This document shows, piece by piece, positions 1 through 18,993 of a stretch of DNA of 18,993 nucleotides. The DNA comes from Dysgonamonadaceae bacterium (GTDB lineage Bacteria > Bacteroidota > Bacteroidia > Bacteroidales > Azobacteroidaceae), in the NCBI GenBank assembly GCA_031255425.1, contig JAIRSN010000087.1, positions 1 to 18,993 on the forward strand, in the 5' to 3' direction. Each line of letters opens with the position of its first letter. Position 1 is the first letter of the stretch. The notes under the pieces are model-generated. The model saw only the letters and a program-made list of their open reading frames with translations, was not told the origin of the DNA and did not search any database. Both the position numbers and the translations under genes were made by a program.

Positions 1-35
1 CGTAAATGGGCGAGTTCGATATAATCGATCTTCAT
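1..35 (-). CDS. Possible N-terminus of a leftward gene, cut by the window edge
   Basis: On the minus strand an ATG at 35 opens a frame that stays open to the edge and reads MKIDYIELAHL. It is preceded on its own strand by an A/T-rich stretch, which is the usual context of Bacteroidetes start codons. The charged-hydrophobic beginning would fit many protein families, so no function is assigned. Eleven codons are too few to prove coding, and no TAnnTTTG box was found just upstream. If it is real, palindrome array 1 lies in its upstream region. Confidence 0.3.
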   Translation of the reverse strand, partial: MKIDYIELAHL

Positions 36-48
36 ACTTTAAAAAATT

Positions 49-92
49 TAATTGTTAATAATATAATTACTTCTCTTGTTTATTGAAAATGA
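49..92. other. A/T-rich leader-like flank of palindrome array 1
   Basis: This stretch ends at the first palindrome of array 1 and matches the stretch in the same place before array 2 (13824-13866). Both contain TAATTGTTAATA, then 5 or 6 variable bases, TTACTTCT, 11 mostly T-rich bases, AAAATG, and then the first palindrome. The match beyond the palindromes suggests that flank plus array form one element. Function unknown. Confidence 0.6.
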
Positions 93-409
93 CTTTCGGG
101 GTGACCCCGAAAGTGTGAATGTTAACGCGGGCACGTTTTCGGGGTGACCCCGAAAACGTGAATCTGTTAAATTAGTATAATCGGGGTGACCCCGAAAACG
201 AAAATCTGTTAAATTATTGCTTTCGGGGTCACCCCGAAAGCGTAAAAAGTTCTCCGGCGCGTTTTCGGGGTCACCCCGAAAGCATGAAAAGTTCTCCGGG
301 ACGTTTTCGGGGTCACCCCGAAAGCATGAAAATTTGCCTGAGATGTTTTCCGGGTTACCCGGAAACCGTGAAAATTTGCCTGGGACATTTTCGGGTTCAC
401 CCCGAAAGG
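91..409. repeat. Palindrome array 1: eight units at a 42-43 bp period
   Basis: Eight palindromes have centres at 103, 146, 188, 230, 272, 314, 356 and 398, so the steps are 43, 42, 42, 42, 42, 42 and 42 bp. The typical unit has arms CTTTCGGGGT and ACCCCGAAAG around one central base. That base is G in units 1-3, C in units 4-6 and T in unit 7. Unit 7 has changed to a CCGGG/CCCGG core on both arms at once. Unit 8 has one mismatch. The 18-22 base spacers occur as neighbouring near-copies: CTGTTAAATTA twice, AAAGTTCTCCGG twice and AAAATTTGCCTG twice, with a GTTAAC spacer first. This is not a CRISPR: spacers resemble one another, repeats vary, and no cas gene is present. Because 42 is a multiple of three, several frames stay open (14-residue periods such as FSGSPRKHEKFSGT), but these are probably not genes. 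Confidence 0.9.
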
Positions 410-533
410 GAAAAAACAATCGTTTCATGATATTATCTAAACGTTTATTCTTTCAATTTATTTTATTATTCCTTCTATATATTATAGGATATAAGATGAT
501 AATAACCCGCAGCCAAACAGACACACCGTACTC

Positions 534-5823: not shown

Positions 5824-5830
5824 CTGGACA

Positions 5831-5882
5831 GACACAGAGTGTCTTTTATATTTTAAAGAGGCACGGCTATCGGCTTGGCTGC
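5831..5882 (-). repeat. Dispersed hairpin element, copy 1
   Basis: Read on the minus strand it has a GCAGCCAAGCCGATA head, an A/T tract ending ATAAAAG, and the hairpin GACAC-TCT-GTGTC, a perfect 5-bp stem. It points at the GH5 promoter, which begins 8 bp beyond the hairpin. It is head-to-head with copy 2. Confidence 0.75.
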
Positions 5883-5885
5883 GGC

Positions 5886-5928
5886 GAAGGGGGACTGCTT
5901 CCCAAAAATATAAAAGCGCCTGCGGCAC
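5886..5928 (+). repeat. Dispersed hairpin element, copy 2
   Basis: It has a shorter head, CTGCTTCCC, then AAAAATATAAAAG, then the hairpin GCGCC-TGC-GGCAC with one mismatched pair. It points toward the kinase promoter at 5954. Together with copy 1 it forms a roughly 100-bp inverted pair filling the divergent region. Confidence 0.65.
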
Positions 5929-5953
5929 TGTGGCTAATATAAAAATTTTCGTT

Positions 5954-8374: not shown

Positions 8375-8397
8375 TTTTTATTTGGCGGGCGGACACG

Positions 8398-8450
8398 GCG
8401 GCGCAGCCGCTTTTATATTTTTGGGAGACACGGCGTATCGGCTTGGCTGC
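8398..8450 (-). repeat. Dispersed hairpin element, copy 3
   Basis: Read on the minus strand: head GCAGCCAAGCCGATACGCCG, then CTCCCAAAAATATAAAAG, then the hairpin GCGGC-TGC-GCCGC with a perfect 5-bp stem. It points at the rpoN promoter, starting 24 bp beyond the hairpin. A nearly identical copy begins at 18956. Confidence 0.8.
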
Positions 8451-8534: not shown

Positions 8535-8698
8535 AGTAACCCGACCCTGAAAGGGTCGAATAACCCAGCCCAGGGCATTCGCCCTGGGTATCGGGGAGTG
8601 CGGGTAGAGGAATCCCGCCCATCCATACAATATTATATTACCCAAGGCGTTGCCATTGGGCTGGGCTATGCGACCCCTTCAGGGTCAGGCGCGTCATC
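8535..8698. repeat. Composite inverted repeat of nested hairpins
   Basis: The left half has hairpins CGACCCT-GAA-AGGGTCG (8542-8558) and CCCAGGGC-ATTC-GCCCTGGG (8569-8588). The right half holds the corresponding sequences in inverse order: CCCAAGGC...GCCATTGGG (8641-8660) and GACCC-CTTCA-GGGTC (8672-8686). The two halves are therefore an imperfect inverted repeat as well as each being self-complementary. Translated peptides such as NPTLKGSNNPAQG arise from it but look like by-products. I believe similar peptides appear in many Bacteroidetes hypothetical proteins, which would fit a widespread intergenic repeat. Confidence 0.75.
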
Positions 8699-8717: not shown

Positions 8718-8771
8718 GATACCGCCGGCTAAACGGATTACAACTCGCTTCGCTCAAACAGTAATCCGTTT
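8718..8771. repeat. Intergenic repeat with 11-bp stem, full copy
   Basis: The arms AAACGGATTAC (8731-8741) and GTAATCCGTTT (8761-8771) pair perfectly across a 19-base loop. Bases 8718-8761 (44 bp) recur without change at 18912-18955, where the right arm is missing. Confidence 0.85.
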
Positions 8772-8850: not shown

Positions 8851-8907
8851 GCGTAGTGCAAAACCGATACACCGTACCATTTAAAATTATAAAAGCGGCT
8901 GTGCCGC
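8851..8907 (+). repeat. Dispersed hairpin element, copy 4
   Basis: It has a head with AACCGATACACCGTACC, the tract TTTAAAATTATAAAAG, and the hairpin GCGGC-TGT-GCCGC with a perfect 5-bp stem (8895-8907). It points at the argB -7 box at 8922. It is the distant partner of copy 3, with the repeat mosaic between them. Confidence 0.78.
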
Positions 8908-13685: not shown

Positions 13686-13706
13686 CGACCCGGAGGGTTG
13701 GCGCCG

Positions 13707-13760
13707 GACACGCAGTGTCTTTTATAATTTTAAAGGAGTACAGTGTATCTGCTTGGCTGC
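13707..13760 (-). repeat. Dispersed hairpin element, copy 5; likely end of the argB operon
   Basis: On the minus strand: head GCAGCCAAGCAGATACACTG, tract TTTAAAATTATAAAAG, and hairpin GACAC-TGC-GTGTC, a perfect stem. Read on the plus strand it is a hairpin followed by TTTTATAATTTT, 87 bp after the last operon gene, so it could serve as that operon's terminator. No other terminator-like structure was found there. Confidence 0.7.
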
Positions 13761-13823
13761 ACATAGGAACATTGCTTCCCCATAAAAATTGAATTGTTAA
13801 ATGTTAATTGAATTGTTAAATCC

Positions 13824-13866
13824 TAATTGTTAATAAACCTTTACTTCTTTTTTTATCTCAAAATGG
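13824..13866. other. A/T-rich leader-like flank of palindrome array 2
   Basis: It matches the flank of array 1 at 49-92: TAATTGTTAATA, TTACTTCT and AAAATG occur in the same order and at nearly the same spacing, with one base of difference in length. Upstream, ATTGAATTGTTAAAT occurs twice (13788-13802 and within 13805-13821). Confidence 0.6.
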
Positions 13867-14187
13867 CTTTCGGGATACCCCTGAAAGCGTTTATGGAATC
13901 TGCGAGGCGTTTTCGGGGTAATCCCAAAAACGCAAATGTTAACAAAAACCTGTTTTCGGGACAGTCCCAAAAACGTGAATGAGTACTCCAACATGATTTC
14001 GGGACAGTCCCAAAAACGCAAATGTTAACGAAAACCTGTTTTCGGGACAGTCCCAAAAACGCAAATGAGTACTCCAAGATGATTTCGGGACAGTCCCAAA
14101 AACGTAAATGAGTACTCCAAGACGATTTCGGGACAGTCCCAAAAACGCAAATGTTAACGCCGGGACGTTTTCGGGACGATCCCGAAG
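13866..14187. repeat. Palindrome array 2: eight units at a 43-bp period
   Basis: Eight units start at 13866, 13909, 13952, 13995, 14038, 14081, 14124 and 14167, every step being 43 bp. The typical unit is TTTTCGGGAC, A, GTCCCAAAAAC: a palindrome with one C-A mismatch that becomes a G-U pair in RNA from the minus strand. The last unit (GGGACGATCCC) is better paired; the first is degenerate. Spacers fall in two classes, AAATGTTAAC-type and ATGAGTACTCCAA-type. These contain the small palindromes GTTAAC and GAGTACTC and occur in the order a, b, a, b, b, a between units 2 and 8. Because 43 is not a multiple of three, reading frames shift at each unit, so the short ORFs here are unlikely to be genes. 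Confidence 0.9.
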
Positions 14188-14190
14188 TCG

Positions 14191-14231
14191 GAGTCGCAGC
14201 CGCTTTTGTATTTTAGGGAGGCAGTTCCCCT
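14191..14231 (-). repeat. Dispersed hairpin element, copy 6 (degenerate)
   Basis: On the minus strand: CTCCCTAAAATACAAAAG followed by GCGGC-TGC-GACTC, with two mismatches in the stem. It begins four bases after palindrome array 2 and is head-to-head with copy 7. Confidence 0.55.
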
Positions 14232-14236
14232 ATGCC

Positions 14237-14290
14237 GCAGCTAAGCAAATATACCGCACCCCTTTAAAATTATAAAAGAGGCTGAGCCTC
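14237..14290 (+). repeat. Dispersed hairpin element, copy 7
   Basis: It has a head GCAGCTAAGCAAATATACCG, then CCCTTTAAAATTATAAAAG, then the hairpin GAGGC-TGA-GCCTC with a perfect 5-bp stem that differs from the other copies. It points toward the surE promoter 44 bp away. Confidence 0.75.
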
Positions 14291-14333
14291 CAAAATGCAA
14301 CGAATATTAATAGAAGGAATAAATAAAAATGCC

Positions 14334-18911: not shown

Positions 18912-18955
18912 GATACCGCCGGCTAAACGGATTACAACTCGCTTCGCTCAAACAG
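18912..18955. repeat. Second copy of the 44-bp intergenic repeat
   Basis: It is identical to 8718-8761. The right arm GTAATCCGTTT present there is missing here; the sequence passes directly into the hairpin of dispersed element copy 8. Confidence 0.85.
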
Positions 18956-18993
18956 GCGGCGCAGCCGCTTTTATATTTTTGGGAGGCACGGCG
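18956..18993 (-). repeat. Dispersed hairpin element, copy 8, cut by the window edge
   Basis: It has the hairpin GCGGC-TGC-GCCGC on the minus strand with the ATAAAAG tract and part of the head. It matches copy 3 at 8398-8435 with one substitution. It points toward tkt. Confidence 0.75.

Follow-up and report, generated by a model that had tools for sequence, protein, structure and literature searches.

At the start of contig JAIRSN010000087.1, from the genome of a Dysgonamonadaceae bacterium, eight palindromes follow one another at regular distances behind an A/T-rich flank, a layout that resembles that of a CRISPR and raises the question of what such an array is and to which gene it might belong. 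The window considered here is the whole stretch of 18,993 nucleotides of this contig (C176), which forms part of an assembly of 2.01 Mb in 274 contigs that is 76.9% complete. The palindromes of this first array (array 1) are centred at about positions 103, 146, 188, 230, 272, 314, 356 and 398, their spacing amounting to 43 bp once and then to 42 bp six times. An earlier note on this DNA, made from the letters alone, had read the same spacing, and it was borne out by the sequence, by the chain of palindromes and by TRF, which returned 42-bp arrays at 139–246 and 221–408. Likewise, the A/T-rich flank that the note considered common to array 1 and to a second array of the window (array 2) was recovered (67–163 versus 13841–13937, 71% identical), and its description of the spacers as not unique was confirmed, neighbouring spacers being near-copies of each other, which upholds growth of the array through unit duplication. 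Searching the genome for the palindrome pattern with at most two mismatches gave 39 matches, with both strands counted and most sites therefore counted twice, and none for the reversed control. The features of both arrays are collected in Table 1.

Table 1. Features associated with the two palindromic arrays of the window (strand given where one applies)
Feature	Position	Strand	Basis or remarks
DUF6261 gene, first 11 codons (MKIDYIELAHL...)	1..35	-	ATG 35..33; runs off contig start; translation
A/T-rich 5' region of the DUF6261 gene ('leader' of the earlier note)	36..91	-	Contains TTATTAACAATT stretch, present at locus L013 too
Array 1, eight palindromes	92..408		Sequence, TRF, palindrome chain
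Seventh palindrome, compensatory double change	347..365		TTTCCGGG..CCCGGAAA replacing TTTCGGGG..CCCCGAAA
Right flank (GAAAAAACAATCGTTTCATGATATTATC...)	409..512		Common to arrays of L012, L013 and L110
Open frame (126 aa, putatively translated) made of repeats of 14 residues and spanning the array	48..428	-	Stop 12 bp before the DUF6261 ATG
Array 2, eight palindromes, period 43 bp; orphan without DUF6261	13866..14190		Palindrome chain; DUF6261 search
Leader of array 2	13785..13865		Last part (from 13841) resembles window 67-91
Left inverted-repeat arm around array 2	13706..13760		55 nt, 80% complementary to 14237-14291
Right inverted-repeat arm around array 2	14237..14291		55 nt, pairs with 13706-13760

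The flank that the earlier note had interpreted as a CRISPR-like leader proved to be something else. Since a third DUF6261 copy, on the minus strand, has its first eleven codons at the left end of the window, the A/T-rich segment is the 5' region of that gene, which points away from the array and whose ATG lies 56 bp from the first palindrome. Eleven residues are too short for a domain match of their own, and the assignment was made through DNA alignment with two other loci of the same genome, L013 and L110: the match between the window and L013 extends into the DUF6261 gene of L013, and L110 aligned over the same region. The genes at L013 and L110 are members of PF19775, DUF6261 (E 1.3e-38 and 1.5e-24, respectively).

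DUF6261 is hence the linked gene family for which the earlier note had proposed to search. PF19775 is present in 13 of 38 genomes of the genus, 32 of 295 of the order and 6 of 296 in a phylum-wide sample, and occurs in several copies in many of the Bacteroidales genomes that carry it. Pairing was assessed at loci picked by the DUF6261 protein alone and not by the array; order-wide, these comprised the best matches plus 40 chosen from the PF19775 list of the order (12 from genome G230, 8 from G254 and 20 from seven other genomes). In the first set (104 local hits, less six duplicates and one without a start, giving 97, four of which had less than 300 bp upstream), the kilobase preceding DUF6261 had 41–43 bp as its best tandem period at 69 of 93 loci and another best period or none at the remaining 24, among them the 40-bp array of Parabacteroides sp. 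An277, which was scored as a miss; the corresponding figures were 3/92 downstream and 0/97 in the coding part. A second set was drawn from 42 loci in named MAG records. Four of these, confirmed by a later comparison to repeat loci of the first set, were removed, as were those too short to include a start, and 32 offered 300 bp or more on whichever side was scored. Here the period appeared upstream in 26/32, with 42 bp as best period in 25 of them, and downstream in 2/32, a fifth duplicate (L273, identical to L183) having entered the downstream count only. As a control, ABC-transporter loci from 12 DUF6261 genomes carried an array in 1 of 30 cases, against 41 of 57 DUF6261 loci. At least one linked array occurred in 33 of the 42 DUF6261 genomes examined; the nine in which none was seen include G274, which was not assessable. 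Outside Bacteroidales, a 41-bp array accompanied two of seven DUF6261 loci, one with a 20-bp sub-period, while among 30 further stretches around weak matches, some of them overlapping, a single one held a 41–43 bp array, already known from G016. The loci are not all independent, as paralogs and related genomes are among them. Taken together, the pairing of DUF6261 with an array of near-fixed period and free sequence is well supported. The suggestion of the earlier note that the design may be undescribed has stood so far, as no description of the pairing was found in the literature searched, with subscription journals mostly outside its coverage.

The 98 linked arrays have periods of 40 (two), 41 (36), 42 (57) and 43 bp (three). 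In the first set 41 bp was about as common as 42 bp (35 versus 31), so helical phase is not exact. Concerning the unit of 42–43 bp that the earlier note had defined, the regular spacing stands, but across loci the unit has no fixed sequence, only a near-fixed period with free sequence. Perfect palindromes with 6-bp arms were found in 36 of 70 consensus units of linked arrays, against 3.9 expected, and were absent from 34. Two palindrome centres were present in eight units (0.1 expected), 20.5–21 bp apart in six of these eight.

Unit sequence is locus-specific, even between close relatives. For six pairs of proteins that are 78–90% identical, the arrays are 51–67% identical, as compared with 45.4 ± 4.5 and a maximum of 58.8 for random pairs; three of the six fall inside the random range, including the pair with 90%-identical proteins, whose arrays are no more alike than by chance (51%), and three keep some likeness. 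In L198/L178, L203/L235 and L211/L213 the flanks align at 79–92% and the array is left between them as an unaligned gap; it aligns in part in L199/L231, and lies within a longer alignment of about 80% in L200/L234 and L110/L162. As these comparisons show, the unit sequence of the arrays turns over much faster than the DUF6261 protein. At one further pair of loci, L204/L232, syntenic in two related genomes, the flanks align at 67–89% while most of the enclosed DUF6261 gene does not align as DNA, a pattern that points to rapid change or to replacement of the gene.

The paralogous loci L013 (contig C60) and L110 (C163) illustrate what is replaced. The alignment is good over some 500 bp of the gene and over the flanks, and the spacers resemble one another, but the palindromes have been replaced throughout, being of GTGGGG..CCCCAC types at one locus and of GCCGGT..ACCGGC type at the other, and even the single palindrome nearest to the gene is altered on both arms. 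The claim that the palindrome is the conserved part of the unit therefore holds within array 1 but not between loci, where paralogs exchange it while spacer and flanks remain recognisable. Compensatory double changes inside arrays exceeded the numbers expected under independence in three sets (8 versus 1.5, 5 versus 0.6, and 16 versus 3.3, the third including some duplicate loci). Changes in one arm were far commoner (138, 66 and 262, respectively), from which it follows that single units tolerate a broken stem.

Arrays elsewhere in the genome of the window were sought with the palindrome pattern and then with a two-hairpin covariance model, and both placed the design on many contigs. TRF, applied to the stretches fetched from the window's genome and from five sister genomes, returned 72 arrays of period 40–44, 48 of them in the genome of the window, where merging left 37 arrays in 40 fetched stretches, 22 lying within 600 bp of a contig end. 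With these arrays and the order-wide DUF6261 loci, the regular spacing is not unique to the two loci of the window, a possibility that the earlier note had raised against its own proposal. The stems vary from array to array yet stay largely complementary: in an alignment of 28 sequences, 46 cells had changed on both sides, against 23.6 ± 3.6 after shuffling and at most 7 in slid controls. A broader set of 22 sequences gave 42 against 20.0 ± 3.9, and is less clean, as its slid controls reached 29. The palindromy of the genome-wide arrays is in part a matter of selection, given that these loci were found by palindrome models; the loci chosen by protein are free of this effect. At E ≤ 0.05 the broader model matched in 6 of 38 genomes of the genus, that of the window included, and sister-genome arrays have periods of 41–43 bp with other palindromes, for instance TTTCGTAC..GTACGAAA in G023. 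In another sister genome, G008, four loci (L089, L090, L091 and L120) carry tandem arrays whose period, 21 bp, is half of the common one, two 21-bp halves alternating at L090; no DUF6261 was found near them in the fetched stretches.

Many of these arrays have no DUF6261 beside them. Among the 15 arrays of the window's genome situated at least 600 bp inside a contig, 14 lack DUF6261 in the fetched stretch. If a class of DUF6261-linked arrays is defined by a DUF6261 start beside a 41–43 bp array, array 1 fits and array 2 does not. Matches of the element around array 2 to four other contigs begin at 13701–13711, and flanks are common to the copies of this type, as they are among L012, L013, L110 and the window. 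Terminal inverted repeats surround array 2; none were seen for array 1, where the contig breaks off on the left. On the grounds of orphan arrays, inverted-repeat arms and copies of the element on other contigs, arrays of this lineage appear to have spread away from DUF6261 in a MITE-like manner. One locus is present on two contigs (L016 on C73, L019 on C166) with nearly identical flanks and with different array units and leader repeat numbers, a difference that shows recent change, either between strain variants or between paralogs.

Other repeats share these intergenic regions. A separate module, roughly 100 bp long and with ends that resemble GGCGGCGCAGCCGCTTTTATATTTT and the complement of it, is scattered between genes and often adjoins arrays (window 5830–5932, 8397–8435, 8872–8907, 13706–13760, 14190–14291 and 18955–18993). 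It has the appearance of a small MITE or of a bidirectional terminator, and L289, likewise in the window's genome, has tandem copies of a 92-bp version. A 44-nt stretch of ACTCGCTTCGCTCAAACAG type, identical at 8718–8761 and 18912–18955, belongs to another dispersed repeat that also lies beside arrays in L080 and L082, and a dispersed intergenic palindromic module, GACCCTTTCAGGGTCG..CCCAGGGCGAATGCCCTGGG, occurs at L074, L018, L086, L013 and around position 8568 of the window.

Among the explanations considered, we rank first, as a tentative choice that falls somewhat short of conviction, one in which the array would control the expression of DUF6261 as a helically phased cis element under geometric constraint, array 1 being the cis element of its own DUF6261 locus. 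The constrained property would be geometry, that is, spacing together with twofold symmetry, and not sequence. At 10.4–10.5 bp per turn, 41–42 bp corresponds to four turns and 21 bp to two, which places the palindromes on one face of the DNA however many units there are, and DNA geometry would be the best explanation for a period near four turns combined with a half spacing of two turns. An oligomeric protein, perhaps DUF6261, might read this spacing and symmetry rather than a fixed sequence and thereby control DUF6261 expression, while gain or loss of units would tune the element at unchanged helical phase. New unit variants would spread via unequal duplication, with the arms being corrected against each other, and in the genome of the window arrays would have left DUF6261, at least one type of them inside an element with inverted-repeat ends. 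A likeness is offered by the iteron and parC arrays of plasmids, in which tandem sites spaced by whole helical turns precede the rep and par genes and are specific to their locus; they differ in that the protein encoded there binds a conserved sequence, whereas the closest DUF6261 pair has chance-level arrays. The BOX elements of pneumococcus, in which a middle unit of some 45 bp, present in varying number, lies between a leader and a tail, have a similar build, but consist of fixed sequence modules and have no linked gene family.

Second in rank, and on the whole unlikely though by no means negligible, is control at the RNA level, in which the array would be transcribed and its hairpins, perhaps bound by DUF6261, would govern translation or decay of the DUF6261 mRNA. 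The stems do covary, and the motif TAnnTTTG, the −7 box of Bacteroidetes, was found within 200 bp upstream of the array at 16 of 47 short-gap loci (3.0 expected from single-base shuffles, as for all these counts), as compared with only two of 47 between array and ATG (0.9 expected). Within 125 bp upstream of the array, 94 loci had 20 motif positions in forward and seven in reverse orientation. Given this enrichment upstream of short-gap arrays, some arrays are probably transcribed. Loci with a long gap, however, had no clear preference (9/49 upstream, 4.0 expected, and 9/49 between array and ATG, 5.4 expected), and a near-constant period of 41–42 nt with a half spacing of about 21 nt has no obvious reason in an RNA.

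We consider it improbable that the arrays are neutral passengers, minisatellites or MITE-type elements found near DUF6261 by history only. The 14 orphans inside contigs, the arms bracketing array 2 and the leader and array shared by several loci would all fit such an origin; nevertheless, across genomes from many families the array is found on the upstream and not on the downstream side of DUF6261, and its sequence is replaced while the period is kept. Nor do named dispersed repeats accommodate it. Like REP/RAYT sets, the arrays are intergenic palindromes in many copies, but they are long, regular and tandem, and a search for the Y1 transposase (PF01797) in the incomplete genome of the window gave no match; the earlier note's statement that this is not a classical REP cluster agrees with the lack of any sign of a REP/RAYT set. 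Porphyromonas gingivalis, a member of the Bacteroidales, harbours named repeats with 41-nt and 23-nt periods that speak for a passenger origin as far as their partly accessible description goes. The closest by period and dispersed copies, in a comparison by description only, is MITE464/PgRS, which the accessible part of PMC4596501 presents as MITE-like, with around 10–20 dispersed copies, 41-nt tandem direct repeats and IS5-type terminal repeats (GAGACTGTTGCA). Its period compares with 42 and 43 bp in the window and 41 bp in sister species and order-wide; the GAGACTGTTGCA ends matched four times in the window, always with two mismatches (6.6 expected) and never at the end of either array, and that part of the description makes no mention of a linked gene family, palindromes or locus-specific units. 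The BrickBuilt MITE of the same species, according to the accessible part of that source (PMC4596501), is intergenic, contains promoter elements and has 23-nt tandem units between a leader and a tail, with 19 copies in one genome. It resembles the present arrays in having tandem repeats between flanks common to the copies, and differs in its 23-nt unit without spacers, against 42/43 bp in the window, and in that a linked gene family goes unmentioned there.

Still less probable is a translated leader, in which each 42 bp of the array would encode 14 residues of a small repetitive protein that ends at or near the DUF6261 start and couples its translation. Besides the open frame of the window (Table 1), frames end at most four bases from the ATG in L110, L144, L146, L147, L169 and L233, and frames open through the array continue without a stop across the gap at a higher rate than the remaining frames (13/25 versus 17/74, p 0.011). 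Upstream of the array the rate is likewise higher (55/108 versus 67/183, p 0.02). Against coding, every sense frame is interrupted in 21 of the 36 arrays with a 41-bp period (sense open in 15, antisense in 10, 7.1 expected), 42-bp arrays are equally open in antisense (48/57) and sense (46/57; 38.6 expected), and the gap signal runs in the same direction on the antisense strand (p 0.17). Finally, a CRISPR-like immune array is next to inconceivable, because the likeness is confined to layout (A/T-rich flank, regularly spaced palindromic repeats, spacers), whereas the spacers of array 1 repeat as adjacent near-copies, which contradicts a CRISPR, the palindrome and not the spacer differs most between paralogous loci, the linked gene is DUF6261, and Cas1 (PF01867) had no match in the 76.9%-complete genome, all in keeping with the earlier note's denial that this is a CRISPR.

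Returning to geometric control as the preferred explanation, the DUF6261 protein itself offers few clues. The family has a median length of about 248 residues and a slightly acidic median pI of 6.0, with a pI above 7.5 in 22 of 92 members. The model is helical and confident (pLDDT 94.7), the copy from the window's genome having an extra C-terminal beta domain; a structural search with it returned no significant match, and a DNA-binding fold is consequently unsupported. Five members had no match in NCBIfam and no convincing one among the PADLOC defence models, where helical stretches of ZorA aligned with one protein (E 0.0017 and 0.0026). Of the 84 downstream neighbours, 70 were scanned, and these include no Pfam family with more than four members, LRR_5 being the most frequent match (4/70); the neighbours are unrelated, and DUF6261 thus seems to stand alone. 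Near DUF6261 in L142, L144, L146, L156, L163 and L175 there are also 69-bp tandem repeats, which probably encode BspA-type leucine-rich proteins.

A more elaborate two-part system, which we regard as doubtful, would have DUF6261, alone or with a partner, set and maintain the array as a ruler of about two turns for symmetry and spacing. Were this the case, the array could be freely rewritten while remaining functional, distinct arrays would keep paralogs from cross-reacting, and orphan arrays would be further targets.

Overall, these data indicate that DUF6261, a family without known function, brings along its own cis element, conserved in length and symmetry and not in sequence. As an element conserved in geometry only is invisible to sequence-based searches, similar pairs of gene and array may have been missed elsewhere. 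The pairing provides a first handle on the role of DUF6261, together with dozens of natural replicates in which an array has been rewritten at a kept period.
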